From IMG/VR virus record IMGVR_UViG_3300033143_001962, positions 1 through 64,000 of that record: 64,000 nt of DNA. One strand, given 5' to 3'. This document shows, in pieces, positions 2,578 to 57,596 of this stretch. How positions within the stretch are numbered: position 1 is the stretch's first letter; every line of letters starts with the position of its first letter. The position numbers and the translations under genes are program-made. The notes under the pieces were generated by a model that saw only the letters and a program-made list of their open reading frames with translations, was not told where the DNA came from and did not search any database. This stretch comes from a virus.

Positions 2578-2924
2578 CGCACGTTCGGCTGTGGGTGTGG
2601 TAGACGTTCCGGTTGTGCTATCGTGTTGTATATAATTGTTAACCAGTGCTTATCTGAATTCTCAATAACATTACCAGTTTCGTCTAAGTAACCGGGTTGT
2701 ACTTCTTCGGTCATTTTATTAATAACGTCACATGGTACTGCCAGTGTGTCATTACCACTGTTGTAATAATTTATCATTTCCATCACGGTATCGTGATCGT
2801 ACTTGCCTGCGGCTTCTGTTCTAAAACAGTATCCAGCATTTTTTGGATTCCATAATGTAATATACGGGTCTTCTTCTTTAGTGTGCTTTACGCTTACTAT
2901 GTAGTACTTACTTATGTTTTTCAT
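2574..2924 (-). CDS. Conserved hypothetical phage protein ('YIT-W-P-AGY')
   Basis: 116 residues. It starts YYIVSVKHT and contains PYITLWNPKNAGYCFRTEAAG, a pattern I recognise from short uncharacterised proteins of many phages and prophages that carry IT.W.P...GY and an AG.Y segment. It lacks the W-x-K-L element of its neighbours. It is coupled to the next gene by ATGA and overlaps the previous gene by 17 bp. Function unknown. Confidence 0.65.
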   Translation of the reverse strand: MKNISKYYIVSVKHTKEEDPYITLWNPKNAGYCFRTEAAGKYDHDTVMEMINYYNSGNDTLAVPCDVINKMTEEVQPGYLDETGNVIENSDKHWLTIIYNTIAQPERLPHPQPNVR

Positions 2925-3156
2925 TTGCTAGGCCTTTTAGTTGTTCAATCAACTCTTTATCAAGTTCTTCTCGGATTCCAATGGCTAATTCTCTTGCCAT
3001 GAAGTCTTGGAATGTTTCTGTTGGCGCTCCATGTTGTAATCTGTGCCATACCTTTTCTTCTTCGGTCATGCCCGCTTCGTCATCAGAAGGCATTATGTCT
3101 GTACCTCTGATATCCCAATTAGCCATTAGTGGGTTAGCTGGTTTTTTATTAGTCAC
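2908..3156 (-). CDS. Small W-x-R-L protein carrying a gp23 helix-like segment
   Basis: 82 residues. Around residues 30-41 is EEEKVWHRLQ, the recurring W-x-[KR]-L element of this block. The C-terminal LAIGIREELDKELIEQLKGLA aligns without gaps to gp23 residues 198-218 of this same phage: identities include L, A, I, E, D, E, L, L and A, and most other positions are conservative. A 21-residue helical match alone is only suggestive, but two other proteins in the cassette carry different gp23 pieces. It overlaps both neighbours. Expected to be soluble, charged and helical. Confidence 0.65.
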   Translation of the reverse strand: MTNKKPANPLMANWDIRGTDIMPSDDEAGMTEEEKVWHRLQHGAPTETFQDFMARELAIGIREELDKELIEQLKGLANEKHK

Positions 3157-3454
3157 TCATCTTTCCTCTTAATTCGCTTCTGCGTCCTGATATTATAATT
3201 AAATTATTACTTTTTGCAAAGTCCATTAAATGTTTGTACATTCCAGGCGCTTCTTCTTCGAGTCTATCGTCGATACATAATCCTGATGCACTGTGCTCGT
3301 CTACGAAACACGGGTGTACGTACTTGTGATATTGCATACGTTTATTAGCTCCGAATGATGCGGCGGTTCCTGCTAATCGTTTACACCAATCGCTTGGTCT
3401 GAACTTTTTACCTTCTGTAGTTATTCCTACTATTAATTTTGTCGGGTCTGGCAT
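3149..3454 (-). CDS. DUF3579-like protein
   Basis: 101 residues. IVGITTEGKKFRPSDWCKRL, then a conserved middle with CFVDEHSASGLCIDDRL, and a late FAKSNNL segment follow the pattern of the DUF3579 family as I know it from beta- and gamma-proteobacteria (…TxDGxxFRPSDWxERL…FAxxNxL). Length is close to a full domain. It is one of the few genes in the block that looks like a complete bacterial protein rather than a phage-specific module. Biochemical role unknown. An AGGA ribosome-binding site precedes the ATG. Confidence 0.6.
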   Translation of the reverse strand: MPDPTKLIVGITTEGKKFRPSDWCKRLAGTAASFGANKRMQYHKYVHPCFVDEHSASGLCIDDRLEEEAPGMYKHLMDFAKSNNLIIISGRRSELRGKMSD

Positions 3455-3474
3455 TTTAATCCTAAATGTTTCTG

Positions 3475-3666
3475 CTATTTAGCCCCGGATAATAACTTCC
3501 AATCTTTTCCATCATACGTCCACATGTCATCCGAACTGTGATCGAAGTAGATGCTGCCGGCTATAGGTTTAGCAAGCGGGTCACTAGTGAATTTTGGACC
3601 AGTGTATTTTAATCTATCCCAGACTTCTTGCTGCTCTTTAGTTAATTGTGGTGTACGTACTGACAT
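3475..3666 (-). CDS. W-x-R-L protein with a tail-fibre repeat unit
   Basis: 63 residues from ATG at 3666, chosen because GGAG lies 9 nt upstream; a longer in-frame extension to 3822 overlaps the previous gene and is unlikely. Residues 10-20 carry EQQEVWDRLKY. Residues 37-61 (starting GSIYFD, ending LLSG) match the two-copy unit of this phage's tail-fibre-like protein at 52847-54340 (GQLWFDS…VFNG and GDMWFDT…VYDG): G-x-[ILM]-[WY]-F-D-x5-[LM]-x-x-[YF]-[DN]-G-x-x-[FW]. Such units are widespread in phage tail proteins, so ancestry could be another tail gene. Confidence 0.6.
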   Translation of the reverse strand: MSVRTPQLTKEQQEVWDRLKYTGPKFTSDPLAKPIAGSIYFDHSSDDMWTYDGKDWKLLSGAK

Positions 3667-3961
3667 GCAAGTCTGCTCCGTCAGGTGGAGTTGATTTGAA
3701 CTGTATGGTAGTTGTTGCATTACTTTCAATACTGTAATCAAGTTTATGGCGTAGTTTGCAGCCGTCTTTAAAGACTTCGAATCGCACCTTCTCCAATGTA
3801 AGTGATGGTAATGCAAATACATCGCCCCAACCGTTACCTGTGAAGTGGTTTACACTTATTAGCCGGTCGCTAGCCTGCCTTAGTATATTCCACATTTCCT
3901 TTTTAGACTTAAATGCTTTTGTTATTGTTTTCTTAGGAAGTTTCATTTTAGTCTGCGCCAC
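3638..3961 (-). CDS. W-x-x-L protein with a giant-baseplate-protein-like repeat
   Basis: 107 residues. A basic N-terminus leads to KKEMWNILRQ, a variant of the W-x-[KR]-L element. The C-terminal half (V-x-F-E-V-F-K-D-G…DYSIES…IQFKSTPPDGADLHVSTY) has the same pattern as the repeats of the 4342-residue protein encoded at 39102-52130, for example one with AIDGNIQRPRYDYTLAGNVL. It overlaps the preceding gene by 19 bp and the following one by 29 bp. Function unknown; a repeat unit expressed alone is the visible feature. Confidence 0.6.
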   Translation of the reverse strand: MAQTKMKLPKKTITKAFKSKKEMWNILRQASDRLISVNHFTGNGWGDVFALPSLTLEKVRFEVFKDGCKLRHKLDYSIESNATTTIQFKSTPPDGADLHVSTYTTIN

Positions 3962-4218
3962 ATTTCCCTTTTGTGATTCTCTTTACGCTCAGCTTTATTT
4001 CTTACATGCACAAAACGTTTATGCTCTACTATCTCATCTAAGTACGGGCAGTTAAACGCAATTTTATCTATGTCATAACTTTGCCCTACTGCTTGACAGG
4101 AGGTAGCAATGTACACACCATCTTGTGATCCGTCAGGCGAGCAGGCATCAATCTCCCACTCAATGTACTCCTGGCATTGTTTATTCCAGCAAAATTCGTT
4201 AAAGACTATGTCAGACAT
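3943..4218 (-). CDS. Cys-rich NEFC-family protein ending in W-x-R-L
   Basis: 91 residues from ATG at 4218, which overlaps the previous stop. The order NEFCWNKQC…EWE…SCQAVGQSYDI…NCP resembles small cysteine-rich bacterial proteins that may bind a metal. The protein ends REMWRRLK, placing the W-x-R-L element at the very C-terminus. Paralogous to the genes at 4211-4522 and 4959-5234. The longer in-frame extension to 4344 is rejected because it runs through the upstream gene. Confidence 0.65.
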   Translation of the reverse strand: MSDIVFNEFCWNKQCQEYIEWEIDACSPDGSQDGVYIATSCQAVGQSYDIDKIAFNCPYLDEIVEHKRFVHVRNKAERKENHKREMWRRLK

Positions 4219-4522
4219 ATTGTAGTATCCTCCAAATCTTTTCCTTTTTCTTTTGCTTCTGCTCTTCTGCCCATTCCTTTTCAAACAGAAATTTTGCGCG
4301 GGCGTTAGTAACATGCCAATCAACCATACCTTGCAAATGCACACAATTATGCGGGTACGTAGGAATGTTTTCGTCGTTGTCTAAGATCTTAGAGCATGAT
4401 GCATATTCAACAGTGGACACATGAGTTATAAAACCATCTTCCATAATTAATTCTTCGCCGTACTCACTATAGCACTCGCACTCAAAATGATCTCTGCAAA
4501 GTTCGTACCAATTATAACTCAT
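4211..4522 (-). CDS. Cys-rich NEFC-family paralog ending in W-x-I-L
   Basis: 103 residues starting MSYNWYELCRDHFECEC, related to NEFC…C at 3943-4218, with later SC and NCVHL positions matching the SC…NCP of its paralogs. The C-terminus KKKEKIWRILQYV is a variant of the shared W element. The start overlaps the previous stop as ATGA. Probable metal-binding small protein; partner unknown. Confidence 0.6.
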   Translation of the reverse strand: MSYNWYELCRDHFECECYSEYGEELIMEDGFITHVSTVEYASCSKILDNDENIPTYPHNCVHLQGMVDWHVTNARAKFLFEKEWAEEQKQKKKEKIWRILQYV

Positions 4523-4731
4523 TTTAATTTATCCTCAGGGATGGACATTGCATCGTGTATCCTCTGCATGTACTGTTCTCTGAATTTATGCATCGTTGGC
4601 TGCACTGCTGTTTTAATAACATCTATATCTATATCTGCCCATCTATGCCAGCCAGTCTTAGGCTTGTTATCACCTTTAAGCTTATCCCACATTATCCACT
4701 TAGCTGTCTTTGTTTTCTTCGTCTTTTTCAT
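4519..4731 (-). CDS. W-x-K-L protein with 'GDN-P-K-TGW' linker
   Basis: 70 residues from ATG at 4731. A lysine-rich start runs into IMWDKLKGDNKPKTGWHRWAD; the same W-[DN]-K-L-x-GDN-x-P-K-TGW linker occurs in the P-loop protein at 6000-6311, so the two share their N-terminal module but not their C-terminal parts. The rest is a charged helical segment I do not recognise. It overlaps the gp23-fragment gene upstream by 32 bp. An in-frame extension to 4800 is unlikely. Confidence 0.6.
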   Translation of the reverse strand: MKKTKKTKTAKWIMWDKLKGDNKPKTGWHRWADIDIDVIKTAVQPTMHKFREQYMQRIHDAMSIPEDKLK

Positions 4732-4969
4732 ATTCTGCTCTGGCTTGTGCAAACTGTTTGTTAGTAATCGGGAGGCCGTGTATCGTCCCGTAAATATCAT
4801 CGTCAGACATTGGCTGTATGCCTACTATATCATTTGCTAATAGTGTTGGCATTACCTTTCTAATCATTGGTATCACTATACTATCAAACCCGGGCTTGTG
4901 TACTTTCTTCAAAGCCCTGAATGTTTTTTGTGCGTCACTTATTGTCTTTTTAGTTAGTTTAAAAGACAT
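4700..4969 (-). CDS. Small protein carrying an N-terminal segment of capsid protein gp23
   Basis: 89 residues. Residues 30-55 align without gaps to residues 59-84 of this phage's gp23: 15 of 26 are identical (P, I-R, VMPT, AN, VG, QPMS) and nearly all others conservative (RKVMPTLLAND against RRVMPTVIANE). The IHGL that follows matches IHTL of gp23. The N-terminal part has KTFRALKKV, a Phe variant of the W-x-K-L element. It is a free-standing gene in the early small-gene block, far from gp23 and not a broken copy of it. Confidence 0.75.
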   Translation of the reverse strand: MSFKLTKKTISDAQKTFRALKKVHKPGFDSIVIPMIRKVMPTLLANDIVGIQPMSDDDIYGTIHGLPITNKQFAQARAEYEKDEENKDS

Positions 4970-5234
4970 CTATGTACACCGGCATGTTGTTGATCCTTTT
5001 TAAGCTCTTTTCGGGCTCTAATAATTTCTTCCACATCATATCTTTTTTCTTTGCTTCATGCTTTGCTTTCTTAATATCTTCCATGTGTGGGCAATTTTCC
5101 GCTATCTTTAAAATATTAAATGTAATCTTGCTGGTGCCGATGCTGCATGTTATACACCTACCTACTTGCATTTTAATATCAGCGAAGTGCTTACACTCCT
5201 TTGCTCTGCAAAATTCGTTAAAGTTATACGCCAT
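4959..5234 (-). CDS. Cys-rich NEFC-family paralog with W-x-K-L near the C-terminus
   Basis: 91 residues from ATG at 5234, chosen because MAYNFNEFC then lines up with MSYNWYELC of its paralog; ATG at 5243 is the alternative. Cysteines fall in NEFCRAKEC, then CITC, then AENCPHME, as in 3943-4218. KKDMMWKKLLEPE is the W element, here followed by about 17 more residues. Likely metal-binding; function unknown. Confidence 0.6.
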   Translation of the reverse strand: MAYNFNEFCRAKECKHFADIKMQVGRCITCSIGTSKITFNILKIAENCPHMEDIKKAKHEAKKKDMMWKKLLEPEKSLKRINNMPVYIDVF

Positions 5235-5457
5235 TCCTATCATTATACACTTGATTGAGCAATGGTTCTACACCTTTGGATACATCGCGTATAACGCCAG
5301 GGTAGAATGAACTAATATCGTAATCGACTATATGCACACCTGGTTTCATTACGTGTCCTGTCTGTGACAGACGTTTCCACATTGCATCTTGCTCGCGTTT
5401 TAATTGCTTGCGCAAGCCGTTGCGTATTTTACGTTTAGTAATTTCTATTGCATTCAT
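5224..5457 (-). CDS. W-x-R-L protein with a family-B DNA polymerase motif A segment
   Basis: 77 residues. A basic helix leads to EQDAMWKRLSQTG. Then HIVDYDISSFYPGVIRDVSKG follows the motif A pattern of family-B polymerases (D-x-x-S-[LF]-Y-P-x-[IV]-I), which in T4 gp43 reads D-L-T-S-L-Y-P-S-I-I-R. The final segment V-x-P…QVYNDRNG is reminiscent of a downstream gp43 segment (VP…KVFNQRK). At 77 residues it cannot polymerise. The start overlaps the previous stop as ATGA. No polymerase gene is in the window for direct comparison. Confidence 0.6.
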   Translation of the reverse strand: MNAIEITKRKIRNGLRKQLKREQDAMWKRLSQTGHVMKPGVHIVDYDISSFYPGVIRDVSKGVEPLLNQVYNDRNGV

Positions 5458-5585
5458 TTATCATCTGGCTCGTTGAATATTATTTTAGCATTTTGGTAAT
5501 CTACCTGAAGCGGTATATACGGGCAATATATATAACCTGCGTTTACCTCTACTTCCACTGGAACGAATTTTAATTTGTCCCACAT
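5454..5585 (-). CDS. 43-residue W-x-K-L protein carrying a C-terminal gp23 motif
   Basis: ATG at 5585 with AAGGA just upstream gives 43 residues starting MWDKLKFVP; a TTG at 5618 would add 11. Residues 18-24 are YCPYIPL, identical to gp23 residues 338-344 of this phage (also YCPYIPL), and the downstream V/I-rich strand is similar in character. The stop overlaps the next start as ATGA, the same coupling as its neighbours, which supports it as a real gene despite its size. Confidence 0.65.
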   Translation of the reverse strand: MWDKLKFVPVEVEVNAGYIYCPYIPLQVDYQNAKIIFNEPDDK

Positions 5586-5601
5586 TATTTCCTTATCTGT
5601 T

Positions 5602-6003
5602 TTATTCGTGTTGTCCAAACTCTACTCTCTCGGCCATATTTTTCTTAATTTGATTCTGACGGTTCATATTATGAATTGTTCTAGCAAACGATGAGCGACA
5701 TAATACTGTTAAATACGAATACGCATTGCTACTCTTAGTTTCATCGTATCTGTGATAGTACCGTAACATATTAGTAATTGCGTCTTGTATTAAGTCCTCA
5801 GCGTATGTAAACGATTGAAAATTTTTCCTAGTTAATTCTTTCTCTGCTAAATGTACAAGGTACTTTGCTAAGTTGCCAGTCGTTTGTTTAATCAGTTTCG
5901 AGTGACGTATTGCTTCGCGTAACTCTGCGTTGGTTGTGATCTCAACTTGGTTGTACCATGGTGCTTTTAACTTACGCCAAAATAATTTTTGTTCTTTGTT
6001 CAT
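5602..6003 (-). CDS. gp55-like sigma-factor paralog with N-terminal W-x-K-L
   Basis: 133 residues starting EQKLFWRKLKAPW after MNK. The rest aligns along its length with this phage's gp55 (28673-29653): TTGNLAKYL against TTGNLAMMY, then TYAEDLIQDA against TYNDEMQGQA, ETKSSNAYSYLTVLCRSSF against EMKSQNPFAYYTAAVTNSF. These are the sigma-2-like region and flanking helices. It lacks the long N-terminal and insert regions of gp55 (326 residues). It could compete with or replace gp55 on RNA polymerase at an early stage. ATGA coupling to the previous gene. Confidence 0.75.
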   Translation of the reverse strand: MNKEQKLFWRKLKAPWYNQVEITTNAELREAIRHSKLIKQTTGNLAKYLVHLAEKELTRKNFQSFTYAEDLIQDAITNMLRYYHRYDETKSSNAYSYLTVLCRSSFARTIHNMNRQNQIKKNMAERVEFGQHE

Positions 6004-6311
6004 ACAGAAGACGATTCAAAGTCTATTAGAATGGGGCTGTTTTTAGTACGTACTGCCCGGCCAAGACTCTGGAAAGCGATCATACTTTTCCCTACACCAG
6101 ACTGTGCTGTGAATCCATTTATGAAGCTACGGTTAATACCGTGCATGAAGTTTGATGCTTCTGCAAGATTCCGCCAACCTGTTTTCTTAGGTGTATTATC
6201 GCCACTAAGCTTGTTCCATATTTGCGAGGGTGTGCCGTGTATCTTTTCAAACTGCTTACGTTTGCCGTTTGCTATCTTACGTTTATTAATCTGTACTTTA
6301 CTTTCTTTCAT
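6000..6311 (-). CDS. W-x-K-L protein with a truncated P-loop RecA-like segment
   Basis: 103 residues. PSQIWNKLSGDNTPKKTGW is the shared module and linker also seen at 4519-4731. It is followed by GFTAQSGVGKSMIAFQSL, a Walker A loop (G-x-x-x-x-GKS), and PILIDFESS, which has the position of the second strand of RecA/UvsX-type ATPases. The chain stops there, so no Walker B or DNA-binding loops are present and ATP hydrolysis is unlikely. It looks like the front third of a RecA-like core. ATGA overlaps on both sides. Confidence 0.65.
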   Translation of the reverse strand: MKESKVQINKRKIANGKRKQFEKIHGTPSQIWNKLSGDNTPKKTGWRNLAEASNFMHGINRSFINGFTAQSGVGKSMIAFQSLGRAVRTKNSPILIDFESSSV

Positions 6312-6463
6312 CGTGGTCCTGTATTCTTTGTTGGCTGTTTCATCGACAAAAATATACTAGATAGTAATTTCCATTCTTTCTGTGCTTCGGTGAGTGGAGG
6401 AGTGCTTAACTTCTTCCACATTTCGTGCTGTTCTCTTTCTTCTTTTGTTTTAAATATTTTCAC
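6308..6463 (-). CDS. Small W-x-K-L protein, 51 residues
   Basis: GTG start at 6463 with AGGA upstream gives 51 residues: a charged helix, then QHEMWKKLSTPPLTEAQKEW and a basic tail. A longer in-frame reading to 6526 would run through the upstream gene and has no ribosome-binding site. The segment after the W element is not recognised. It overlaps the upstream gene by 14 bp and the downstream gene by ATGA. Confidence 0.55.
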   Translation of the reverse strand: MKIFKTKEEREQHEMWKKLSTPPLTEAQKEWKLLSSIFLSMKQPTKNTGPR

Positions 6464-6743
6464 GGTGCTTCCTGAGTTTTGCTTTTGCTTGTACCCGTGT
6501 ACTAAAATCCGTAGATTCCACATCACGCATCAAATTTGCCAGTGCATCCCTTTCTTGTGCTAATCGTTTTTCTTCTTCGTAGTCAACATCAGCAGACATC
6601 ATTCGTGCTCTAATTCTGACAGACATATCCTGATCTTTACATAATAAATCCAAGTGCTTGCGGGTATGGATTAGCTCAATCTTTTCTTCTTGCGTCAGTG
6701 CTGAAATACGTAGCACATCAAATAAGTCTGTTTCAGTTGTCAT
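6450..6743 (-). CDS. Helical 'LTQ-EK' family protein
   Basis: 97 residues, strongly helical and charged. DLFDVLRISALTQEEK and RKHLDLLCKDQDMSVRIRARM match the gene at 8065-8349 (DLFTIIKLNALTQYEK; NKHLDYFENDDDSEVRRYARK), so the two are paralogs; the D-x-S/E-V-R-x-R/Y-A-R repeat is HEAT-like. No W-x-K-L element. It overlaps its upstream neighbour by 11 bp. Function unknown. Confidence 0.6.
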   Translation of the reverse strand: MTTETDLFDVLRISALTQEEKIELIHTRKHLDLLCKDQDMSVRIRARMMSADVDYEEEKRLAQERDALANLMRDVESTDFSTRVQAKAKLRKHRENI

Positions 6744-6900
6744 ATAACGTTTTCTTCTTGCCCATTGTTGCCATTAAGTACGATCTGACTAGATAATTAT
6801 CTTGTACCGCGAAGTTAGGATCAATCCAATATGACTCAACGGCATGCTGAATGCTTCCGTACTTTAATTTTAAAAATGTTACCACTTGTTCAATTTCCAT
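6733..6900 (-). CDS. LKYGS-family small protein
   Basis: 55 residues from ATG at 6900 to TGA at 6733. VVTFLKLKYGSIQHAVESYW carries the family signature ([LF]-x-L-K-Y-G-S-x-x-x-A-x-x-x-[WY]). It is the first gene behind the promoter at 6950-6979 and heads the long cassette that runs down to about 1.6 kb. Function unknown. Confidence 0.65.
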   Translation of the reverse strand: MEIEQVVTFLKLKYGSIQHAVESYWIDPNFAVQDNYLVRSYLMATMGKKKTLYDN

Positions 6901-6986: not shown

Positions 6987-7328
6987 CTAAACATCATTTG
7001 CCAAAATTGCTGTGGCTGATGGCTTTATGCGTTTACGATCGTTGTCGTACTGAGCTGTAGCAATTTCAATACTGCTTAAATGTTTTAATAATGAGTGGAG
7101 TTTTTTATCTTCGTTGCCTAACTTTGACCACATAATGTCTTTGCTGAACAAGGTGCGAATCGCGTTAACGTTTGTTTCAATTCTTTCTAACCTGCCATTG
7201 AACTCGCCTACGTTTCCATTGTGCTGCCGGACCGTGTGTGCGAGCTTAGTTTTCAACCCCGAAATTTCATCGTCTTTGTCACGGAGTTGTTGTTGCAGGT
7301 CTCTAATTAAATTCTTCTTAGCTGTCAT
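6987..7328 (-). CDS. Coiled-coil protein with W-x-K-L
   Basis: 113 residues. Residues 1-60 have heptad-like leucine/isoleucine spacing (IRDLQQQLRDKDDEISGLK), predicting a coiled coil and oligomer. KDIMWSKLGNED is the shared W element near the middle. The C-terminal 40 residues are unassigned. It has its own promoter at 7381-7409 and an AGGTGA ribosome-binding site. Confidence 0.65.
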   Translation of the reverse strand: MTAKKNLIRDLQQQLRDKDDEISGLKTKLAHTVRQHNGNVGEFNGRLERIETNVNAIRTLFSKDIMWSKLGNEDKKLHSLLKHLSSIEIATAQYDNDRKRIKPSATAILANDV

Positions 7329-7380: not shown

Positions 7381-7409
7381 AGTATAACATTTTTTGGTGC
7401 AGAAGTCAA
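7381..7409 (-). promoter_or_regulatory. Sigma70-type early promoter
   Basis: TTGACT (7409-7404), 17 nt spacer, TATACT (7386-7381), followed by TAG. It drives the coiled-coil gene at 6987-7328. The -35 box overlaps the stop codon of the upstream LKYGS gene. Confidence 0.75.
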
Positions 7410-7582
7410 GCTTTTCGCTTATTTAGGTTAATAAAGTTGTAATTATTGTATTGTTCTTTGGAGTACAGTAGGAGTGCTTTGTGTTCGTCGTTGGATAGAT
7501 TGATATCATTGTTGACCCAAAGGTCGAATGCGTTTGTCATGCTGCCGTACTTGAGAATTAGAAAGGTTTTTGCCTGGTCCAT
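7406..7582 (-). CDS. LKYGS-family small protein
   Basis: 58 residues from ATG at 7582. KTFLILKYGSMTNAFDLWVN is a near-consensus copy of the family. The C-terminus NLNKRKA ends on a TGA that is part of the next gene's -35 box. Its own promoter is at 7635-7663, so it is a single-gene transcription unit. Confidence 0.65.
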   Translation of the reverse strand: MDQAKTFLILKYGSMTNAFDLWVNNDINLSNDEHKALLLYSKEQYNNYNFINLNKRKA

Positions 7583-7634: not shown

Positions 7635-7663
7635 AGTATAACGTTTTGTTATTTAAAAGTCAA
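7635..7663 (-). promoter_or_regulatory. Sigma70-type early promoter
   Basis: TTGACT (7663-7658), 17 nt, TATACT (7640-7635), then TAG. Same layout as 7381-7409; it overlaps the end of the gene at 7660-7869. Confidence 0.75.
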
Positions 7664-7869
7664 GTTTTTATTAGCAGTTTGAAGAACATTGCGTCTTGCT
7701 CTTGCTCAAACCAGAAGACTGGGGCGGTGTACTGATATATAAATTTGCCAGTGGTGTGCTTGCTGCACCATGCGGATAGTTCTAATAGATTATTTTTACT
7801 ATGTGTGAATGATACTTTATACCATGTGTTTCTATCAAAGGCATCGTAACATTCTTGATTCTTTTTCAT
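7660..7869 (-). CDS. Small protein with degenerate W element (EQDAMFFKLL)
   Basis: 69 residues. The sequence around FWFEQEQDAMFFKLLIKT repeats the EQDAM[WF]x[KR]L pattern of 5224-5457 with Phe in place of Trp. The preceding FIYQYTAPVFWFE resembles short phage proteins with a 'fwFe..DA..FkL' ending, so here the element may belong to an older family. Function unknown. Confidence 0.55.
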   Translation of the reverse strand: MKKNQECYDAFDRNTWYKVSFTHSKNNLLELSAWCSKHTTGKFIYQYTAPVFWFEQEQDAMFFKLLIKT

Positions 7870-8072
7870 CGGAAGTTATTTATTTTTTTCAGTATATCAA
7901 GCAACTCCGGAATGTCCGGGTGTAAGTCCGGATCAATGCTATCCAGCCAGTGCTTGAACTCTTGGTCGTATTTTTGTATATTGATTTCTTTAATGAGCTC
8001 TAATTTCTGCTCGGTGGTTAAATACTCTTTGGTTAATCTATGCCACAGTTCTTTCTTTTCTTCTTCACTCAC
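7866..8072 (-). CDS. Small W-x-R-L helical protein
   Basis: 68 residues. EEEKKELWHRLTKEYLTTEQ puts the W element right at the N-terminus, followed by LELIKEINIQKYDQEF, weakly similar to the LTQ-EK helical family. Acidic and helical. The start overlaps the previous stop codon region. Function unknown. Confidence 0.6.
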   Translation of the reverse strand: MSEEEKKELWHRLTKEYLTTEQKLELIKEINIQKYDQEFKHWLDSIDPDLHPDIPELLDILKKINNFR

Positions 8073-8418: not shown

Positions 8419-8859
8419 CTAAACGTTGTCGTTTTCATGTAGGCGTGTGTATAATGATAGTGCTAAATCAAATTGCATAATATGTGACATTATCCAGGGA
8501 CGGATTATCGATACTAAGTAGTATCCCATAACTTTTGGATTATGCGATAACTGTGATGTGTCAGCAACTTGATGACGTATATCATTGTGTGATTCTTTGT
8601 GACAATCGGCTGCTAATTTAGGAAATCCAATTCTATGCATTAGTGCTTCTTCGTGTTCTAAATGTGTGTCAACGTAGTCAACTAGCTCATCGTAGTACTG
8701 CTGAATGTGCTCTATTGTTGGGTCATCGTGTGTAATTTCGTTAATAATATTATTGCATAATTTAAACAGATTTCGGTGTTCGTTATCTATTTGTAAGTCG
8801 CCTGTTTCAAGGTCAGGTTGCCATTCTAACGGCGTTAGATTATCGGATTGTGGGGTCAT
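8419..8859 (-). CDS. Bacteriohemerythrin
   Basis: 146 residues, the normal length of single-domain bacterial hemerythrins, which bind O2 at a diiron site. All seven expected ligands are visible in the right order: His28 (DNEHRNLF), His66 and Glu70 (THLEHEE), His87 and His91 (HKESH), His126 and Asp131 (HIMQFD), within the W…L…G…ID.EH / EE.LM…GFP / W…HI…D framework. There is no signal peptide, so it is cytosolic in the host. It has its own promoter at 8892-8920. A phage copy may buffer or sense oxygen or scavenge iron or NO; that role is inference. Confidence 0.92.
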   Translation of the reverse strand: MTPQSDNLTPLEWQPDLETGDLQIDNEHRNLFKLCNNIINEITHDDPTIEHIQQYYDELVDYVDTHLEHEEALMHRIGFPKLAADCHKESHNDIRHQVADTSQLSHNPKVMGYYLVSIIRPWIMSHIMQFDLALSLYTRLHENDNV

Positions 8860-8942: not shown

Positions 8943-9089
8943 TCATTTTAATGCAAAAAATTCGTTAAGCATATTGAATTCTGCTACTGGCATTTTAGCG
9001 ACTGCTGACCAATTCATCATCATATCATATGCTTTTTGTTGTGATCCGTACTTAATAACAATGAATGATTTTATTTCTTCAGTACTCAT
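8943..9089 (-). CDS. LKYGS-family small protein
   Basis: 48 residues from ATG at 9089, which overlaps the upstream stop by 11 bp; a longer frame to 9137 is less likely. KSFIVIKYGSQQKAYDMMMNW is the family block. Last gene of the LKYGS cassette. Function unknown. Confidence 0.6.
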   Translation of the reverse strand: MSTEEIKSFIVIKYGSQQKAYDMMMNWSAVAKMPVAEFNMLNEFFALK

Positions 9090-9261
9090 AAGTGTACGCT
9101 CCTGTTCGGCGATTATTGTCTTTTGCCCATTGTGCAATCAGATCTGATTCTTCTTGTGTAAATGAGGTATCATCAAATTTATACATCCATTCTTCATAAG
9201 CAAGTATCATACTACCGTACTTTAGTACAAGAATTAGTTCAGTGTCTTTACCCGTTTTCAT
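9079..9261 (-). CDS. LKYGS-family small protein
   Basis: 60 residues. ELILVLKYGSMILAYEEWMY is the family block, followed by an acidic SFTQEESDLIAQWA helix similar to the FTEDEQCMIVGYA of 11086-11277. Overlaps both neighbours. Function unknown. Confidence 0.65.
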   Translation of the reverse strand: MKTGKDTELILVLKYGSMILAYEEWMYKFDDTSFTQEESDLIAQWAKDNNRRTGAYTYEY

Positions 9262-9403
9262 CTGACCACCATTCCATAAATTCAGTTAGCATTGCGTCGA
9301 GATCTGTACCTAAATCGTCACCTGTAAAATTACAATACACCATTACAATGTCATCATTGGACCCGTAACGTAATCTTAAATATGTTAGTACCGCTGGATT
9401 CAT
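9248..9403 (-). CDS. LKYGS-family small protein, divergent
   Basis: 51 residues from ATG at 9403 to TAA at 9248. LTYLRLRYGSNDDIVMVYCN keeps the core (L-R-Y-G-S) but has lost the Ala of the second half. The tail EFMEWWSDENG is acidic. It fills an apparent gap between 9261 and 9400 with the usual start/stop overlaps. Confidence 0.6.
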   Translation of the reverse strand: MNPAVLTYLRLRYGSNDDIVMVYCNFTGDDLGTDLDAMLTEFMEWWSDENG

Positions 9404-9618
9404 GCTTTTAACTTTGCCCACATGTACAATCTATTAATTTCTTCGTCAAACTCAGGTGTGCGTATCGTGTACCCTTTGCCGTTAATTCTATACTGGTAAT
9501 TATCAAAATCGTAAGTCTTAGGTGCAGAGACTCTGTAGTGTCTGACCCAGAACAATGTGCCATTTAAGCATTCGTATACTACATCACGTTGGTGCATTAT
9601 AACCGAGACACTATTCAT
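9400..9618 (-). CDS. 'RINGxxY' family protein ending in W-x-K-L
   Basis: 72 residues. YQYRINGKGYTIRTPEFDEEI followed by YMWAKLKA at the C-terminus. It shares the [FY]-x-[IV]-[NK]-G-x-x-Y-x5-[EA][FY] block with 9933-10124, 10117-10311 and 11277-11516. Overlaps both neighbours by a few bases. Function unknown. Confidence 0.65.
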   Translation of the reverse strand: MNSVSVIMHQRDVVYECLNGTLFWVRHYRVSAPKTYDFDNYQYRINGKGYTIRTPEFDEEINRLYMWAKLKA

Positions 9619-9940
9619 CTTTCTTCTCCGGGACGTGGTCTACTACTAATCTAAGTTCATGCATTGTTAAACGTGTGTACATACCAGGTGGTAGATTTAT
9701 CCAGTAATGATATGCATTAAACACTGACCCGTACTTCCAAATTAGTACCATCTCGGCGTTATCTTTAGTAACATCCAATGTCTCCAGGCAGCCCTGTTCG
9801 CACCATAAATTTAATAGTGGTGGTACATTTTCAACTGTTCTGACTCCTGGCATGTTAACTGCTACTTCAAACGCTGTGATCACTTCTCCGATTGAAGAGT
9901 ACTTAAGTGACAGGAATACTTGCTGTTCATCTTCAGTCAC
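9611..9940 (-). CDS. Tandem (two-domain) LKYGS protein
   Basis: 109 residues made of two family units: VFLSLKYSSIGEVITAFEVA near the N-terminus and MVLIWKYGSVFNAYHYWINL after residue 60. Its length is about twice that of single-unit relatives, pointing to an in-frame fusion of adjacent copies. Overlaps neighbours on both sides. Function unknown. Confidence 0.7.
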   Translation of the reverse strand: MTEDEQQVFLSLKYSSIGEVITAFEVAVNMPGVRTVENVPPLLNLWCEQGCLETLDVTKDNAEMVLIWKYGSVFNAYHYWINLPPGMYTRLTMHELRLVVDHVPEKKDE

Positions 9941-10124
9941 TTAGCTTCTCCCACACACGTTCTTTCTTACGTTCTTCATAAAATGCTTTTCTGTACTCAA
10001 GTGTATTTTCACTGTACAGTACATCGTTAATACGAAGTGTAACCCAGCTTTGTGAAATTGCACTTTGTCGTAGCGTACTGCATACTTGCGCAAATTTACC
10101 ACTGCTTAATTCAATTTCAATCAC
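9933..10124 (-). CDS. 'RINGxxY' family protein ending in W-x-K-L
   Basis: 63 residues. WVTLRINDVLYSENTLEYR matches the family block, and the chain ends ERVWEKLSD, almost identical to the ending EIWQKLSD of the gene directly upstream, so these two are close paralogs in tandem. Function unknown. Confidence 0.65.
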   Translation of the reverse strand: MIEIELSSGKFAQVCSTLRQSAISQSWVTLRINDVLYSENTLEYRKAFYEERKKERVWEKLSD

Positions 10125-10311
10125 TTAGCTTCTGCCATATCTCTGCTTTTTCAATAAATTCTGTTGCTGCTCGTCTAAATGCGTACGAATCTTTTTTGTA
10201 AATAACACCTTTAATTCTGAACGTGTGCCACGCAAAATTAGGATTCTTTAAACGTGGCACATTAGCCTTCACCCAATACCCGCAGTACTTTTCTCTATAA
10301 TGTGCTTTCAT
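10117..10311 (-). CDS. 'RINGxxY' family protein ending in W-x-K-L
   Basis: 64 residues. A basic start, then FRIKGVIYKKDSYAFRRA and the terminal EKAEIWQKLSD. Tandem paralog of 9933-10124, overlapping it by 8 bp. Function unknown. Confidence 0.65.
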   Translation of the reverse strand: MKAHYREKYCGYWVKANVPRLKNPNFAWHTFRIKGVIYKKDSYAFRRAATEFIEKAEIWQKLSD

Positions 10312-12146: not shown

Positions 12147-13337
12147 TTAGCTGAAAGACAAGTTGCTTACGCTGATTTCGCCTAAGTAATCACCAGCATT
12201 ACCAAAAGATGATGCAGTGTTAGTGAGTTCCACGTAACCATAACGTGTCATGAAGCTTACAACTGGTTCGAACGTAGACGGATCTAAAACAACGCCTGAG
12301 CTCATTAAAGGAATGTAAGGGCAGTAGAACGCTGGAGCGTCTGCTTCACTTGAACCTTTATAACCAATAAGTACCGGAGTACTATCAGCAGCATATGAAT
12401 CAACATATACTTTCATAGCACTGTTTAATGTACCAACTAACTTAGTGTTAGTAGGAGCTTCAAAAGTACCTTCAGTTGTACGTGCAAATGCAGATGTAGT
12501 AGCTGATTGTAATACTGTTAATGCAGCTGGACTAACAACGGCATAGTTACCTGCGCCACGACGTGTACGTTGTGCGATAAGGTTAGCAGTACGGTTAACT
12601 AATACAGCAAGTGCCGCATGTTCATCACCTACGAATGTAGCAGTACCAGATACAGCAGCTTGATCGTAGTTGAATTCAGTTGACGCTAAAGAACGTAAAG
12701 ATAATAAAATCTCTTGATCGATTTCAGCGGTAATTTCTTGTGCTAATGCAGCCATGATTTCAGCTTCGACATCAATGCCGTGCATTGATTGTGCATCTTG
12801 AGCAGCTTCAAAAGTCCAACGCGCTTGTAACTTACGTGTCTTCGCTTCAACAGCTTGCTTTAAGATTTGAACGGAAATGTTACGACCGCCTTCACCTTCC
12901 ATTTGCGCTGTAGCAGCACCACGGTAGTCAGTCTGTGTAGCACCAACGCCTGCAGAGTATGCTTGAGCAATTTTGAAAGGACTTAACGCTTCATCACCAG
13001 CTGTAGTTGGTGTACCAGCAGCAGATGTATCGTTCATTGTTGAACCGTAACGTACACGTAAAGTATGGATCTGGCTTACTGGACCAGACATTGGTTGAAC
13101 ACCTACTAATTCGTTTGCAATTACCGTAGGCATTACACGTCGAATTACTGGTAAAATTACACGGTTTAATGTTGCAACGTTACCAGCGGCAGTAGCGCCA
13201 CTTGTAGCAGATTCTGCTAAGTGGTTACGAGTGTTTTCTAGGATTACGCCCATTGTAGAACGTTTAGTACCGTCTAGACCTTCAAGCAATGCTTCTTTAG
13301 TCTCTCCCCAACGGCCTTCTAATAGTGCTTGTGACAT
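12147..13337 (-). CDS. 23: Major capsid protein gp23
   Basis: 396 residues of the T4 gp23 family, the shell subunit. Recognisable blocks are RVMPTVIANELVGVQPMSGP (residues 67-86), the helix LAQEITAEIDQEILLSLRS at 198-216, and YCPYIPL at 338-344. It is shorter than T4 gp23 (521), as expected for marine relatives with a reduced insertion domain. The N-terminal helical stretch is probably removed by the gp21 protease. Last gene of the head operon 20-21-22-23, before the bidirectional terminator. Three small proteins upstream in the genome carry separate pieces of it. Confidence 0.97.
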   Translation of the reverse strand: MSQALLEGRWGETKEALLEGLDGTKRSTMGVILENTRNHLAESATSGATAAGNVATLNRVILPVIRRVMPTVIANELVGVQPMSGPVSQIHTLRVRYGSTMNDTSAAGTPTTAGDEALSPFKIAQAYSAGVGATQTDYRGAATAQMEGEGGRNISVQILKQAVEAKTRKLQARWTFEAAQDAQSMHGIDVEAEIMAALAQEITAEIDQEILLSLRSLASTEFNYDQAAVSGTATFVGDEHAALAVLVNRTANLIAQRTRRGAGNYAVVSPAALTVLQSATTSAFARTTEGTFEAPTNTKLVGTLNSAMKVYVDSYAADSTPVLIGYKGSSEADAPAFYCPYIPLMSSGVVLDPSTFEPVVSFMTRYGYVELTNTASSFGNAGDYLGEISVSNLSFS

Positions 13338-27797: not shown

Positions 27798-28686
27798 GAA
27801 GCTCCTTTGGGTATGTATATGTCCATAATTCTGTTGTTGTTTTGGGAAAGTCGTCACCAATGTCATTACATCTTAATTCGAGATTTAATTCTTCTCTAAG
27901 ATATTTTTGTATGTATGCTTCGTCGTATACGGTACTGTCGTCTGGCATGTTGCAATTAATGTGTTTAGTAAAGTTATCTAAGAACAGTGCTATATCTTTG
28001 TCCTTATTAAGGTGCTTTTGTAAGCTTAACATTTCATTGTGATTTGTCATTATAGTGTCGTAACTTTCGGTTACGTCGAAGTTAAGTTCACGCGCTAACC
28101 GCATTAATGTATTTTTAAAATCAAATAATAAATCTTTGATGTTGATTTCAATACACTTGTCCTTGCTATTATATTCGCCAACTGAATTTACGCCTTTGAT
28201 AAATTCTTTATAACTGTAAAATTCTCGCATGTTTGCAACTTTTGAAAAATCCTCATCATTGATTTCTTTTCTATGCTGGTCTATTAGATATCTGTCATGA
28301 ACTTTATCGTGCTTGTTGTTGCGAATTAATAAATGCATGTCTGCGTCGGATCTAATTAATATACCTTTGACAACTTTTGATAAAATGTAATCAACACTTT
28401 CACCAGCACTCGAATCGGTTAAGTCACGCTCGTCATTAAATACATGATGCATTCGGAAAAACGGAAGTGTGTCTGGCCCGTGTACATGTTGCTCGAACGT
28501 AGGCATGTTAATCCTTGAGTTATATATTGTGAAATTTTTCTGCGTGTGAGAATTGCCATTCTTTCCCCACGGCAATTCCGGACTATCACAAAGCCCAATG
28601 CTGGTAAAATTGTTAAGTACCCAATAAAGATACGACCCGTATGCTCCAGGCTCGTATATTATAGGTATTGTTTTACTTTTTGTCAA
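27790..28686 (-). CDS. Putative sulfotransferase-like protein
   Basis: 298 residues. IIYEPGAYGSYLYWVLN at the N-terminus has the G-x-x-G-S/T-x-L layout of the PAPS-binding loop in sulfotransferases, and KGILIRSDADMHLLIRNN could hold the 3'-phosphate region. The match is weak. Located between gp55 and gp47, with 14 and 8 bp overlaps. It could modify host or virion surface carbohydrate. Fold assignment is low confidence. Confidence 0.45.
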   Translation of the reverse strand: MTKSKTIPIIYEPGAYGSYLYWVLNNFTSIGLCDSPELPWGKNGNSHTQKNFTIYNSRINMPTFEQHVHGPDTLPFFRMHHVFNDERDLTDSSAGESVDYILSKVVKGILIRSDADMHLLIRNNKHDKVHDRYLIDQHRKEINDEDFSKVANMREFYSYKEFIKGVNSVGEYNSKDKCIEINIKDLLFDFKNTLMRLARELNFDVTESYDTIMTNHNEMLSLQKHLNKDKDIALFLDNFTKHINCNMPDDSTVYDEAYIQKYLREELNLELRCNDIGDDFPKTTTELWTYTYPKELHE

Positions 28687-29653
28687 GTTTCTCGTCTGTT
28701 AAATGTTTGTCGTCTGAGTTGTCATTACTAAACTGTCTAGTCCAGCTAGGAGTTAGTCCGTTAGCTTCTAAAATGTCATCACGTATGTTCTGCATCTTCT
28801 TCTCGATGTTTAGTACCCTGGTAAAGCTGTTAGTAACTGCGGCAGTGTAGTACGCAAATGGATTTTGTGATTTCATTTCATTAAACTGTAGTCCAATTTG
28901 ACTAAGCTGTAATAAAGCTTGCCCTTGCATCTCATCATTGTAAGTATAACCACGCCAGTTACTGCGCGTTCCGTAACGTTCGCATAACTTCATGTACATC
29001 ATTGCTAAGTTGCCAGTCGTCCGCCCGTGATCTTTATTAAATGCACCAGTTTCTAAATCACCTTTCCAATGACTCTTACCTACTAGCTGTACTGCCATAG
29101 CATTATCGCCTTCCATAGCAAACCCGTGGTCTGCTAACTTTGAAACACGGTAGTGATAAAATGCAGGAAAGCCACAACGCATAGGAATCATTTCTACTTC
29201 GAGCCCAGTGCCGTCTAGTAACTCTAATTCATCGTCGTTTAATAAATCATCAAACACTGCATTAGCTTTTGCCTGCTTAGCCGCTTTAGCAGTAGCAGCT
29301 TTTGATTTCTTTTTAGGTACAAGTGGAATGTGTTCTGTAGTCATTACTCTGTAAACTACATCTTCTAATTTGATATCTTCTAATTCGGTGGGAATGTCAA
29401 GCTTTGTTAAGCGTGTTGCCCTTGCCTGTCTGCCAAGTAGTGTAACCGGTACGTCTTCCATGATGGGCTTTCCATCTTTGTCTTTGCTTACTTCGACATT
29501 TTGTGTACCCCAAATGTCCGATAAGTTTTCTACTATGAAGTCTTGTTGATTGTCTTCTACTTTGTCCAGAAAAGAACAGTATGAAATTTTACTTAAGTGT
29601 ATCTCTTTCAACATATCCTTGTTATTTAAATAATTCTTTTTACGTTTAGCCAT
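28673..29653 (-). CDS. 55: Late-transcription sigma factor gp55
   Basis: 326 residues from ATG at 29653 (AAGGAG 6 nt upstream). It starts MAKRKKNYLNNKDMLKEI; the sigma-2-like domain has TTGNLAMMYMKLCERYG, YTYNDEMQGQALLQL and NPFAYYTAAVTNSFTRVL, then IEKKMQNIRDDILEANGL. It directs host RNA polymerase to TATAAATA-type promoters. Longer than T4 gp55 (185) owing to N-terminal and basic inserts (VPKKKSKAATAKAAKQAK). A strong sigma70 promoter precedes it, fitting early/middle expression. Confidence 0.9.
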   Translation of the reverse strand: MAKRKKNYLNNKDMLKEIHLSKISYCSFLDKVEDNQQDFIVENLSDIWGTQNVEVSKDKDGKPIMEDVPVTLLGRQARATRLTKLDIPTELEDIKLEDVVYRVMTTEHIPLVPKKKSKAATAKAAKQAKANAVFDDLLNDDELELLDGTGLEVEMIPMRCGFPAFYHYRVSKLADHGFAMEGDNAMAVQLVGKSHWKGDLETGAFNKDHGRTTGNLAMMYMKLCERYGTRSNWRGYTYNDEMQGQALLQLSQIGLQFNEMKSQNPFAYYTAAVTNSFTRVLNIEKKMQNIRDDILEANGLTPSWTRQFSNDNSDDKHLTDEKLDKK

Positions 29654-29681
29654 ACATCTCCTTGTAGCTTTAGATTTAACT

Positions 29682-29709
29682 ATTATAGCACATAAGCATA
29701 ATAAGTCAA
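29682..29709 (-). promoter_or_regulatory. Sigma70-type promoter of gp55
   Basis: TTGACT (29709-29704), 16 nt, TATAAT (29687-29682), 28 nt before the ATG. The same -35 hexamer occurs in the small-gene cassettes. Confidence 0.75.
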
Positions 29710-29743
29710 CCATAATTTATTATATTGGGTTATAATATGTACT

Positions 29744-30898: not shown

Positions 30899-33034
30899 AT
30901 GGCTGACTTTGAACCGTTACCTAATAAGTTTAAGAAGTTTAATAACTTCACTTATTCTGTATCTATATACATTCAATCTCCCGCACATTATGCAGACATG
31001 ATTAATAGTGTCGATGGCTACACGGATCTGAGTAGGCTAACTTTACTCTTACAAAGTGGTGGTATAACTAATAGCACACTCGGAGCAAAGCGTAGCAGGC
31101 ATTTTAAAAATGACTTTTATATAAACGACATACAAATAGAAAGTTTAATAAGTGGCACAGCCACCGGCAGTCCGAGTAACTCGTACGAATTGAACTTTAC
31201 AGTTACAGAACCAATGGGGTTAACATTCCTTGAAAGCTTAAACAATGCAGTACAAGAATATAATCAGGAATTAGGGTACGCAGATGGTGAGGTCAACTTC
31301 GTAGCACAAACATACTTAATGGTAGTCCGTTTTTATGGCTATGACAAGGATGGTAATATCCAAACAGGCGACAGTATCGAAACGTCAGACGCAGATGCCT
31401 CAGTTGAAAAATATATTCCGTTTATGTTTAGTAACATTACATTTACAATGGAAGCAGCACAGGTTGTATATAGGTGTGAAGCGGTATGCCCGCAATCACA
31501 TATAGCAAACGATAAAGCACATGGAGTTATACAGAAGACAATCGGACTGAAAGGTGCAACCCTTGCAGATTTACTGTCTTCTAATAGCTCTACAAGTTTA
31601 AAAACAGTATTAAATGATCACCAAAAGCAACTAAAGAAAAACCACATGTTCACTCATGTAGACAGTTATGATTTTGAATTTGACAAAAAAGGCGGCGCCC
31701 TGGCTATAGCTGAAATGAAACAGAAAGGCGCATTAGACGTAACCCGTAATGCTTCAAAAATAGATCCTACGACGATAATAAGTACAGCTGAGTTAGACAC
31801 AAAGGCACAAGCATTATCAGCACATGCAGGAACAAGCATAATTAAGTTCTTAGACACAGCAATACGTTCTAGCGACTACATACTGAGTCAGTTCACTGAG
31901 GTAGACGATCCGGCTGTCAAGGGCAAAAAGCATTATGTACAGAAGACTGAAGGCCCGCTGAAGTGGTTCAAAATACAACCAAGACTTAAAGCTGATGTTA
32001 ACAAGTACGATAAAAAACGCAACGACTTCGCGTATCACATTACATACGTTATATCAGAATACGATGTACCGAGTTTAGGTACAGTATCACCAGTGTTCGA
32101 CGGCGTTGATTGTTTTAAAGTACACAAGGAATACGACTTTTGGTTCACTGGTGCTAATACAGAAGTACTTGATTTTAGACAAGAGTACAATGCATTTTAT
32201 CTAACATCGTTTAGTAATTCGCATTCAGAGAATAAAACAGGCTCACAAGTAAACTTTAATAATTTAATAAGCAACACAACACGTACAGCAAACATAGCAA
32301 CTTCAAATCAAGTTGCTCGCGGTGGAACAAATGATAGCACACAACAATCAGCTAACGCGGCAAGTATATTATACTCACCTGCTGATCAAGCTAATGCAGA
32401 AATTGATATAGTTGGCGACCCAGATTGGATCTGTCAGAGTGAATTGTATTACGGTCCAGGTGAAGATAAGAATTATGGTCCAGTTATGAACGATGGGTCG
32501 ATTAATCCGAACGTGGCTGAAGTATTTTTTAGTATTAGTTTTAATACAGTAGTTGATTACGATTTAACGACAGGCTTAGCAGATACAAGACACAACGGCC
32601 AAACATTATCGCAATATAAATTAGTGTACAGAGCAAACCAGATAACTACACAATTACACGATGGACAGTTTAAGCAGAAGTTGTTAGGTACTATTATGTT
32701 TATACCTGATAGATGTACAGCCGGCACTAGTAACGGATCAGGTAACGGATCAGGTAACGGATCAGGTAACGGATCAGGTAACGGATCAGGTAACGGATCA
32801 GGTAACGGATCAGGTAACGGATCACAGGGAGTATCTATTAGAGCTACAGACACAGACGCAAAACCTGCTCCGGTACTTAGTAAGGTAGGTAAGTCTAATA
32901 AAATAACTAATACACCGAGTCTCGTCAGCAAAAGAACCGATCGCTCAGCGAAGGAAGCTCTTGACTTGAAAGGCAGTACAGTTACTCAAAGTGGCTCAGG
33001 CTTTGCAAACGAATTTGATGATGACCAAGGATAA
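30899..33034 (+). CDS. Large baseplate hub-region protein with GNGS repeat
   Basis: 711 residues. The N-terminus FTYSVSIYIQSPAHYADM and the mid-part VEKYIPFMFSNITFTMEA look like baseplate proteins of marine T4-like phages encoded between gp53 and gp5; by position it may take the gp27 hub role. Residues about 611-642 are eight GNGS units (12-bp DNA repeat). The C-terminus is a basic low-complexity tail. Exact baseplate position uncertain. Confidence 0.6.
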   Translation: MADFEPLPNKFKKFNNFTYSVSIYIQSPAHYADMINSVDGYTDLSRLTLLLQSGGITNSTLGAKRSRHFKNDFYINDIQIESLISGTATGSPSNSYELNFTVTEPMGLTFLESLNNAVQEYNQELGYADGEVNFVAQTYLMVVRFYGYDKDGNIQTGDSIETSDADASVEKYIPFMFSNITFTMEAAQVVYRCEAVCPQSHIANDKAHGVIQKTIGLKGATLADLLSSNSSTSLKTVLNDHQKQLKKNHMFTHVDSYDFEFDKKGGALAIAEMKQKGALDVTRNASKIDPTTIISTAELDTKAQALSAHAGTSIIKFLDTAIRSSDYILSQFTEVDDPAVKGKKHYVQKTEGPLKWFKIQPRLKADVNKYDKKRNDFAYHITYVISEYDVPSLGTVSPVFDGVDCFKVHKEYDFWFTGANTEVLDFRQEYNAFYLTSFSNSHSENKTGSQVNFNNLISNTTRTANIATSNQVARGGTNDSTQQSANAASILYSPADQANAEIDIVGDPDWICQSELYYGPGEDKNYGPVMNDGSINPNVAEVFFSISFNTVVDYDLTTGLADTRHNGQTLSQYKLVYRANQITTQLHDGQFKQKLLGTIMFIPDRCTAGTSNGSGNGSGNGSGNGSGNGSGNGSGNGSGNGSQGVSIRATDTDAKPAPVLSKVGKSNKITNTPSLVSKRTDRSAKEALDLKGSTVTQSGSGFANEFDDDQG
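32729..32824 (+). repeat. 12-bp tandem repeat, 8 copies (GNGS linker)
   Basis: Eight perfect 12-nt units of GGTAACGGATCA (the first differing at its first base) encode Gly-Asn-Gly-Ser repeats. Identical third positions in every copy indicate recent slippage expansion. Unit length keeps the frame, so copy number can vary without loss of the protein. Confidence 0.95.
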
Positions 33035-55357: not shown

Positions 55358-55666
55358 ATGAAAGATAAACTCAAAAACGTCCGCCAGCACTTCGATCACG
55401 ATGCTGCAAAACAAATACTCAAAGAAAAGTACGAAGCCAAAATGCTATTTGCAGCTTTCGAAGGCATGTGGAAAGCAGGTCCAGAATTAATTAATACACT
55501 CAAAATTGAAATTACTGGTTGCTATGCAAACATGGTATTAATTGACGAGTACGGTAATCCATGTAGCGTTAAGAGAATGGAATTATTATCATTGGCTCAA
55601 CAACGTTGGAAAGAACAAATGAATGGTTGGCACAAAGAATTTGAAGAGTTGCAAAGTAAACGATGA
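55358..55666 (+). CDS. Small conserved hypothetical protein
   Basis: 102 residues, helical, with KNVRQHFDHDAAKQILKEKY and AAFEGMWKAGPELINTLK, and a C-terminal LAQQRWKEQMNGWHKEFEEL helix. First gene of the right-hand island, and its stop overlaps the next start as ATGA. No Shine-Dalgarno. Family not recognised. Confidence 0.6.
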   Translation: MKDKLKNVRQHFDHDAAKQILKEKYEAKMLFAAFEGMWKAGPELINTLKIEITGCYANMVLIDEYGNPCSVKRMELLSLAQQRWKEQMNGWHKEFEELQSKR

Positions 55667-57307: not shown

Positions 57308-57596
57308 CGAGCCAGTCTATCAAAAAATAGAATTTAGGCTGTACTACGACGACGAAAATAAGCCAACGTTCTACACCATGGAAGAACTTGAAGGCAATTA
57401 CATTAACATAACAGCACTAGAGTTTGCAGAAGGCAGGCAAGATGTAGTTATCAAAGATGGCAAAATTAAACGTGTTAGTGGTATAAGCATAGGTAAATTA
57501 GTACCATCGCAGGATGGATATGGCACACTACGAGACGATGTCAGTATAGTAGGATTAGAAACATTATGGAGTATGAAAACGTATGAGAACGATTAA
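57273..57596 (+). CDS. Hypothetical protein of the modification island
   Basis: 107 residues. KIEFRLYYDDENKPTFYTME and YINITALEFAEGRQDV are beta-type. It overlaps the upstream gene by 35 bp and the downstream one by 14. Resembles short uncharacterised proteins often found in marine T4-like phages; function unknown. Confidence 0.6.
   Translation: MTNFFKALSQVNEPVYQKIEFRLYYDDENKPTFYTMEELEGNYINITALEFAEGRQDVVIKDGKIKRVSGISIGKLVPSQDGYGTLRDDVSIVGLETLWSMKTYEND

Follow-up and report, generated by a model that had tools for sequence, protein, structure and literature searches.

In phage T4, three small early proteins, Srd, Srh and Mrh, show similarity to a portion of a sigma factor and are listed as sigma decoys (PMC3594737), and a segment of about 25 residues of the T4 major capsid protein gp23, the Gol segment, binds EF-Tu and acts as a separate EF-Tu-binding peptide in the Gol/Lit/EF-Tu system (PMC3014915). 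Small proteins have also undergone lineage-specific expansion in jumbo phages, as in the zinc-ribbon array of phage G, where a single small domain is repeated many times (PMC7824862). Here we describe a cassette of small genes within bases 1–64,000 (the window) of a 249,797-base IMG/VR virus record, named G000, in which a shared module, a short W-x-[KR]-L element, is joined to pieces of different core phage proteins. Like Srd, Srh and Mrh, the product of 5602–6003 resembles part of a sigma factor; unlike it, the T4 proteins resemble host sigma factors and have no shared module, whereas the set described here is not restricted to sigma factors and includes capsid, sheath, polymerase and recombinase pieces. 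The Gol segment lies within full-length gp23 in T4 but here forms a separate small gene and is found in three module contexts, although EF-Tu binding is known for T4 only. No core-protein pieces on a repeated module are reported for the phage G array (PMC7824862). A literature search found no description of such cassettes, although most subscription papers lay outside its scope and this is no proof of absence.

The G000 portal protein is about 50% identical to the portals of Pseudomonas phages PA5oct and Callisto and is also similar to those of Agrobacterium phage Atu_ph07 and Sinorhizobium phage Phosso; G000 is a PA5oct-like, T4-type jumbo myovirus. The cassette, which is encoded on the minus strand, lies downstream of gp23; its small genes overlap, as originally described, in a head-to-tail arrangement, and positions of these genes and of the intact core genes are given in Table 1. 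No UvsX match was found in the G000 record although 6000–6311 bears a UvsX-like piece, and gp41 and NrdA are likewise absent from its family lists; G000 may be an incomplete record.

Profiles for 63 core families were built from seven jumbo genomes, and each window segment was compared with all of them by hhalign. The null for each family is the best score of 700 random 45-residue windows from small open reading frames (ORFs) lacking the modules, with maxima of 21.6 for gp23, 23.2 for gp55, 25.0 for polymerase, 21.8 for UvsX and 26.3 for the tail family, the last computed leaving out one genuine fragment. Five pieces score above the null, each with the expected family ranked first of the 63. 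The 4700–4969 protein contains a gp23 Gol segment that aligns with T4 residues ~93–122 (hhalign 66, E = 1.5e-11; Pfam Gp23 E = 1.2e-8), and 5602–6003 contains an intact gp55-like piece of ~86 residues (hhalign 63.6; late sigma family phrog_234 E = 7.9e-22; match to the phage's own gp55 1.6e-10; Sigma70_r2 E = 4e-5). Scores are 35.7 for the gp23 YCPYIPL segment of 5454–5618, 35.9 for 5224–5457 exactly at the motif A columns of the family-B polymerase and in register, and 39.0 for 6000–6311 at the UvsX P-loop, also in register. Among all 3441 small ORFs, the 5224–5457 protein scores highest with the polB profile; motif A pieces are not listed in a Pfam polymerase scan and are detected by profile–profile comparison and ranking alone. 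Judged from these sequence profiles, the five pieces are genuine homologies to core proteins. Pieces from the gp23, gp43, gp55, UvsX and gp18 families each correspond to one homologous segment of the parent, with 15–90 residues present, and the parent function is therefore impossible for them: gp23 pieces span 20–60 of ~395 positions and none is a full HK97-type capsid protein, and motifs B and C and the exonuclease of the polymerase are not in the 5224–5457 chain.

The original prediction held that at least seven products combine the element with a core piece and that three different gp23 pieces are among them. Four such products are firm: the predicted polymerase motif A, gp55 sigma and RecA-like P-loop proteins and one gp23 protein. 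Two are borderline, namely the gp23 helix of 2908–3156 (hhalign 21.8 with gp23 ranked first of 63, at the null maximum) and the tail repeat of 3475–3822 (26.4 against tail family f33). The tail unit proposed for 3638–3961 has no hhalign support (PHROG virion protein E = 0.0084), and the Gol protein carries a supported gp23 piece but lacks the element. Conversely, the proteins of 3943–4344, 4211–4522 (in the variant form IWRIL), 4519–4800, 4959–5243 and 6308–6526 bear the element with no supported piece. A third clear gp23 piece of G000 lies outside the window at 156721–156921 (score 37), with the element VWNKLK, and at G000:71306–71641 VWDRLK is joined to a tail-sheath C-terminus (E about 1e-12). 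The sheath-like N-terminus (MPLVSPSVTVREV) of an F-x-L-R-W protein at G000:66582–66839 is not statistically significant.

The W-x-[KR]-L element itself is not random. Of the 358 filtered small ORFs in G000, 16 contain the pattern [MVILF]W.[KR]L, where shuffling predicts 1.4 and gave at most 5 in 200 rounds; within the cassette (taken as 2.9–10.4 kb for this count) the pattern is present in 10 of the 19 filtered ORFs, against 0.08 expected; in six other jumbo phages its frequency is at chance level. These counts are conservative because the filter removed some overlapping ORFs, and the unfiltered list shows more element carriers. The element's position varies from close to the N-terminus through mid-protein to the extreme C-terminus (MWAKLKA, VWEKLSD, IWQKLSD), and it therefore behaves like a short linear motif; a structural model of the 9933–10124 family, of low confidence (predicted local distance difference test, pLDDT, 66), shows the C-terminal element as a helix. 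A leader of ~30 residues, RKIxNGxRKQ...WxRLS, precedes both the motif A piece of 5224–5457 and the P-loop piece of 6000–6311, and in a relative, the short contig L017, it precedes a gp23 piece. The L017 gp23 is 89% identical to the window gp23 and is followed directly by W-x-K-L genes; L017 also has one fusion that joins this leader to a mid segment of gp23. One shared module is thus combined with different core pieces, as had been proposed.

The same architecture is present in other phages and on other modules. Scanning all six reading frames with the gp23 profile revealed gp23 pieces as separate small genes in G000, in the IMG/VR relatives G001, G002 and G004, and in the isolate Phosso. The pieces come from three segments only, Gol (about profile positions 4–62), mid (about 124–193) and C-terminal (about 304–354); one further hit outside these is unconvincing (E = 0.03), and no piece comes from gp23 residues 226–300, even though these are as conserved as Gol. 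The G001, G002 and G004 pieces sit on another module, a small domain ending in F-x-[LM]-[KR]-W that is found in 113 small ORFs in the seven genomes; about twenty such proteins lie in a row in G002, including members with motif A (DISSMYPS) and P-loop pieces, and motif A pieces are present in G000, G001 and G002. One G004 protein carries a P-loop and an NrdA active-site strand (SNLCKEI) ahead of its F-x-L-[KR]-W domain; pooled P-loop pieces match gp41 (92% probability), and the NrdA strand matches NrdA in the right columns (81%). In Phosso, the gene at 182176–182855 has a Gol piece on a third module, a DAWEKYQ-like helix at the C-terminus, the gene at 113923–114303 has a gp23 C-terminal piece on an F-x-L-type module, and the YCPYIPL segment of 5454–5618 is present on another module. 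The tail repeat accompanies W-x-K-L in G000, and in G002, G004 and Phosso it accompanies the DAWEKYQ module. Searches of IMG/VR with the window polymerase, gp55, Cys-rich and sheath pieces found no relatives, a search with the L017 fusion matched only itself, and no fusion turned up when isolates were queried with the polymerase fusions of G002 and the window. Small proteins whose ends carry a DAWEKYQxxLKL element form two further arrays, at G000:104008–105903 and 211753–212869.

The association between modules and pieces was examined across the 3441 small ORFs, with a partial core match defined at E<=1e-3 and contig ends and split neighbours excluded. Partial core matches are present in 9 of 149 ORFs with a shared module and in 8 of 3292 without one (odds ratio 26, p = 7.6e-9), and reversed sequences gave none at the same threshold; we note that independence does not hold for all lineages, as G001, G002 and G004 are relatives. 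The architecture of a shared module and a core piece is real and recurrent.

The ratio of nonsynonymous to synonymous substitution (dN/dS, omega) was determined in related cassettes, the window's own genes having no sufficiently close relatives. The original prediction largely withstands the checks it set itself: profile matches were obtained, and genes of this kind are conserved in related phages. In the comparison of G001 with G002, the motif A protein has an omega of 0.10 (0.22 in the piece and 0 in the module), the P-loop protein 0.17 (0.25 in the piece) and the gp23-mid protein 0.21 (0.33 in the piece and 0.08 in the module), and there are too few changes in the Gol pair for an estimate. 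Most pieces in the related cassettes are thus under purifying selection (omega 0.22–0.33). At residues shared by pieces and parent genes in G000, the same codon is used at 34 of 76, with 33.0 expected; because synonymous codon agreement equals the random expectation, the similarity is old and has been kept at the protein level. In agreement with the original prediction, these are not broken gene copies. Modules and pieces also swap, with gain and loss of pieces: in G004, the homologue of the motif A protein retains its module at 69% identity and lacks motif A, and the Gol proteins of G002 and G004 have only the Gol piece in common, on different modules. The Gol pieces of G000, G002 and G004 are mutually identical at 17 of 25 residues, as compared with 12–15 of 25 to their own or related gp23s; since they resemble each other more than the parent gp23s, the piece may have moved between phages. 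For the G004 Gol piece, identity reaches 67% with the gp23 proteins of cyanophages and Rhizobium phages and is 52% with the gp23 of G004 itself.

We favor, at a probability of about 0.45, the interpretation that the small proteins act as competitive decoys or poisons of the complexes to which the parent proteins belong, most plausibly those of co-infecting T4-like phages. Each cassette protein would join the shared module to a short mimic of one conserved core-protein segment, the mimic would compete with the full-length protein for its partner or cap its assembly, and the module would bring all members to one common site or partner. Region 2 of gp55 is the RNA-polymerase-binding part of the sigma factor, and its piece would compete for RNA polymerase. 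P-loop and polymerase pieces could interfere with replication, and the gp23 Gol piece might bind EF-Tu as the T4 Gol peptide does. The gp23 and sheath pieces may poison assembly; the G000 sheath piece derives from the sheath C-terminus, and in the homologous type VI secretion system sheath the terminal strands form an inter-subunit handshake (PMC5807055). Alternatively, the targets could be the phage's own machinery, for timing. More broadly, and somewhat more tentatively, interchangeable docking modules carrying core-segment mimics may constitute an arsenal of jumbo T4-like phages for trans-dominant exclusion of co-infecting relatives, or may provide host-factor decoys.

Several observations weigh against decoys of this kind. 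The main weakness concerns polymerase motif A and the active-site strand of NrdA: both are catalytic segments buried in the protein and not interaction surfaces, so that a simple competitor model fits them poorly. Many module-bearing members have no recognisable piece, and self-inhibition would need explanation. The window pieces are not clearly nearer to a competitor's protein than to the phage's own, the Gol piece being identical to the G000 gp23 at 15 of 25 residues, although the G004 Gol piece is nearer to other T4-like gp23s than to that of G004.

A less likely alternative is that the modules are functional and that the pieces are own or foreign fragments fused to them by illegitimate recombination and recruited without mimicry. 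It would explain why most module-bearing proteins have no recognisable piece, why pieces evolve faster than modules and why they come and go, and conserved segments would be more readily recognised than others. It is difficult to reconcile with the recurrence of corresponding segments on unrelated modules in different lineages, with the absence of any piece from gp23 226–300, and with catalytic motifs that remain recognisable while flanks and synonymous sites have diverged, which is unlike relaxed sequence.

A further alternative, of about the same low probability, is that the pieces are decoys for host immune sensors of conserved phage proteins such as capsid, portal and polymerase, occupying the sensor without triggering it. 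Known sensors of phage proteins mostly recognise folded proteins, whereas most pieces have 20–50 residues, and no anti-phage defence model of PADLOC matched any of ten cassette-region proteins. The Gol peptide alone suffices to activate Lit, so that an early copy would trigger and not block. Such decoys would nonetheless be consistent with the origin of the pieces in the most highly conserved proteins, among them the part of gp23 by which Lit is activated in T4 (PMC3014915), with the status of capsid proteins as known triggers (PMC9712102), and with rapidly diverging tandem paralogues, as in an arms race.

Independent regulators, for example a truncated second sigma factor or an anti-sigma factor in the case of the gp55-like protein, with the others merely sharing a docking motif, are improbable: the length and intactness of the gp55-like piece fit such a role, but the 20–40-residue gp23, polymerase and UvsX pieces in the same array would be left unexplained. 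A DNA-level function or recent debris (decoy targets for homing endonucleases or clustered regularly interspaced short palindromic repeat systems, recombination templates or fresh core-gene duplications) is highly improbable even though inteins and introns classically insert at polymerase motif A, P-loop and NrdA motifs, as the random codon agreement with the parents and the reading frames and purifying selection maintained in relatives rule out recent duplication, gene debris, and DNA-level decoy or homing sites. The idea that the proteins are virion cargo is weakly disfavored, since the PA5oct members examined bear no mass-spectrometry note.

Jumbo phages have hundreds of small genes that are mostly unexplained, and a shared module with a core piece is a rule that can be read from sequence, with the piece naming a likely target for each such gene. 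If the decoy interpretation is correct, these cassettes would represent a new form of phage–phage or phage–host conflict and would supply ready-made peptides that inhibit replication, transcription and capsid assembly; even with another function, it calls for explanation that unrelated modules repeatedly carry the same core segments.

AlphaFold gives a confident model of the F-x-L-[KR]-W domain (pLDDT 81), in which the order of elements is strand-strand-helix-strand-strand-helix and the signature lies on the final helix. A Foldseek search against solved structures gave a best hit of E = 1.6, with weak eIF1-like resemblance only, and the module has no informative match in Pfam, PHROG or PADLOC. 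Sigma-70-like sites are present upstream of the cassette but are no more frequent than in shuffled sequence, so that the early-type promoter of the original prediction is no more than plausible.

Table 1. Positions of cassette genes and other features (window coordinates unless marked G000).
Position	Strand	Feature	Support or remark
2908..3156	-	VWHRL element and helix resembling gp23 residues ~191-212	hhalign; borderline
3149-3454		Complete DUF3579 domain inside cassette, without W-x-K-L	Pfam E=1.4e-25
3475..3822	-	VWDRLK and tail-protein repeat (GSIYFD...WTYDGKDW)	likely start near 3669; borderline
3638..3961	-	Small protein with MWNIL	claimed tail unit unsupported
3943..4344	-	Cys-rich protein ending MWRRLK; paralogue of 4959-5243	likely start 4218
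4211..4522	-	C-terminal IWRILQ (variant element form IWRIL)	no recognised piece
4519..4800	-	MWDKLKGDNKPKTGW leader in common with 6000-6311	likely start 4731; no recognised piece
4700..4969	-	gp23 Gol segment (IVIPMIRKVMPTLLANDIVGIQPMS), without W-x-K-L	Pfam Gp23, hhalign
4959..5243	-	Cys-rich protein with MWKKL	no supported piece
5224..5457	-	Leader RKIRNGLRKQ...MWKRLSQTG and family-B polymerase motif A (DISSFYPG)	
5454..5618	-	MWDKLK and gp23 YCPYIPL segment	hhalign
5602..6003	-	FWRKLK and gp55 sigma region-2 piece	phrog_234, hhalign
6000..6311	-	Leader RKIANGKRKQ...IWNKLSGDN and UvsX-like P-loop (GFTAQSGVGKS...ILIDFES)	hhalign
6308..6526	-	MWKKLS protein	no recognised piece
6987..7328	-	Coiled-coil-like small protein with MWSKL	
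7409-7381	-	Sigma-70-like promoter match TTGACT-17-TATACT, upstream of cassette	
7660..7869	-	F-x-L-[KR]-W domain family member (WFEQEQDAMFFKL)	hidden Markov model E=5.8e-5, alignment
7866..8072	-	Small protein with LWHRL	
9400..9618	-	Protein ending MWAKLKA	family also adjoins gp23 in L017
9933..10124	-	Protein ending VWEKLSD	modelled C-terminal helix, low confidence
10117..10311	-	Protein ending IWQKLSD	
12147-13337		Intact gp23 major capsid gene	
28673-29713		gp55 sigma gene, own copy	
G000:214604-217375		Intact family-B polymerase	

A further small-protein family with the pattern LKYGSxxxAxxxW, possibly another shared module, is located at 6733–6900, 7406–7582, 8943–9137 and 9611–9940 and is also found beside gp23 in L017. 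Elsewhere in the window, 8419–8859 is bacteriohemerythrin-like by an eye-read pattern only, and the tail-region protein at 30899–33034 has a pure GSGN repeat near its C-terminus. A long run of genes that by eye are glycosyltransferase-like, oxygenase-like and radical-SAM/SPASM-like occupies 55663–64000 and G000:65240–72966, with small module-bearing genes interspersed in it.

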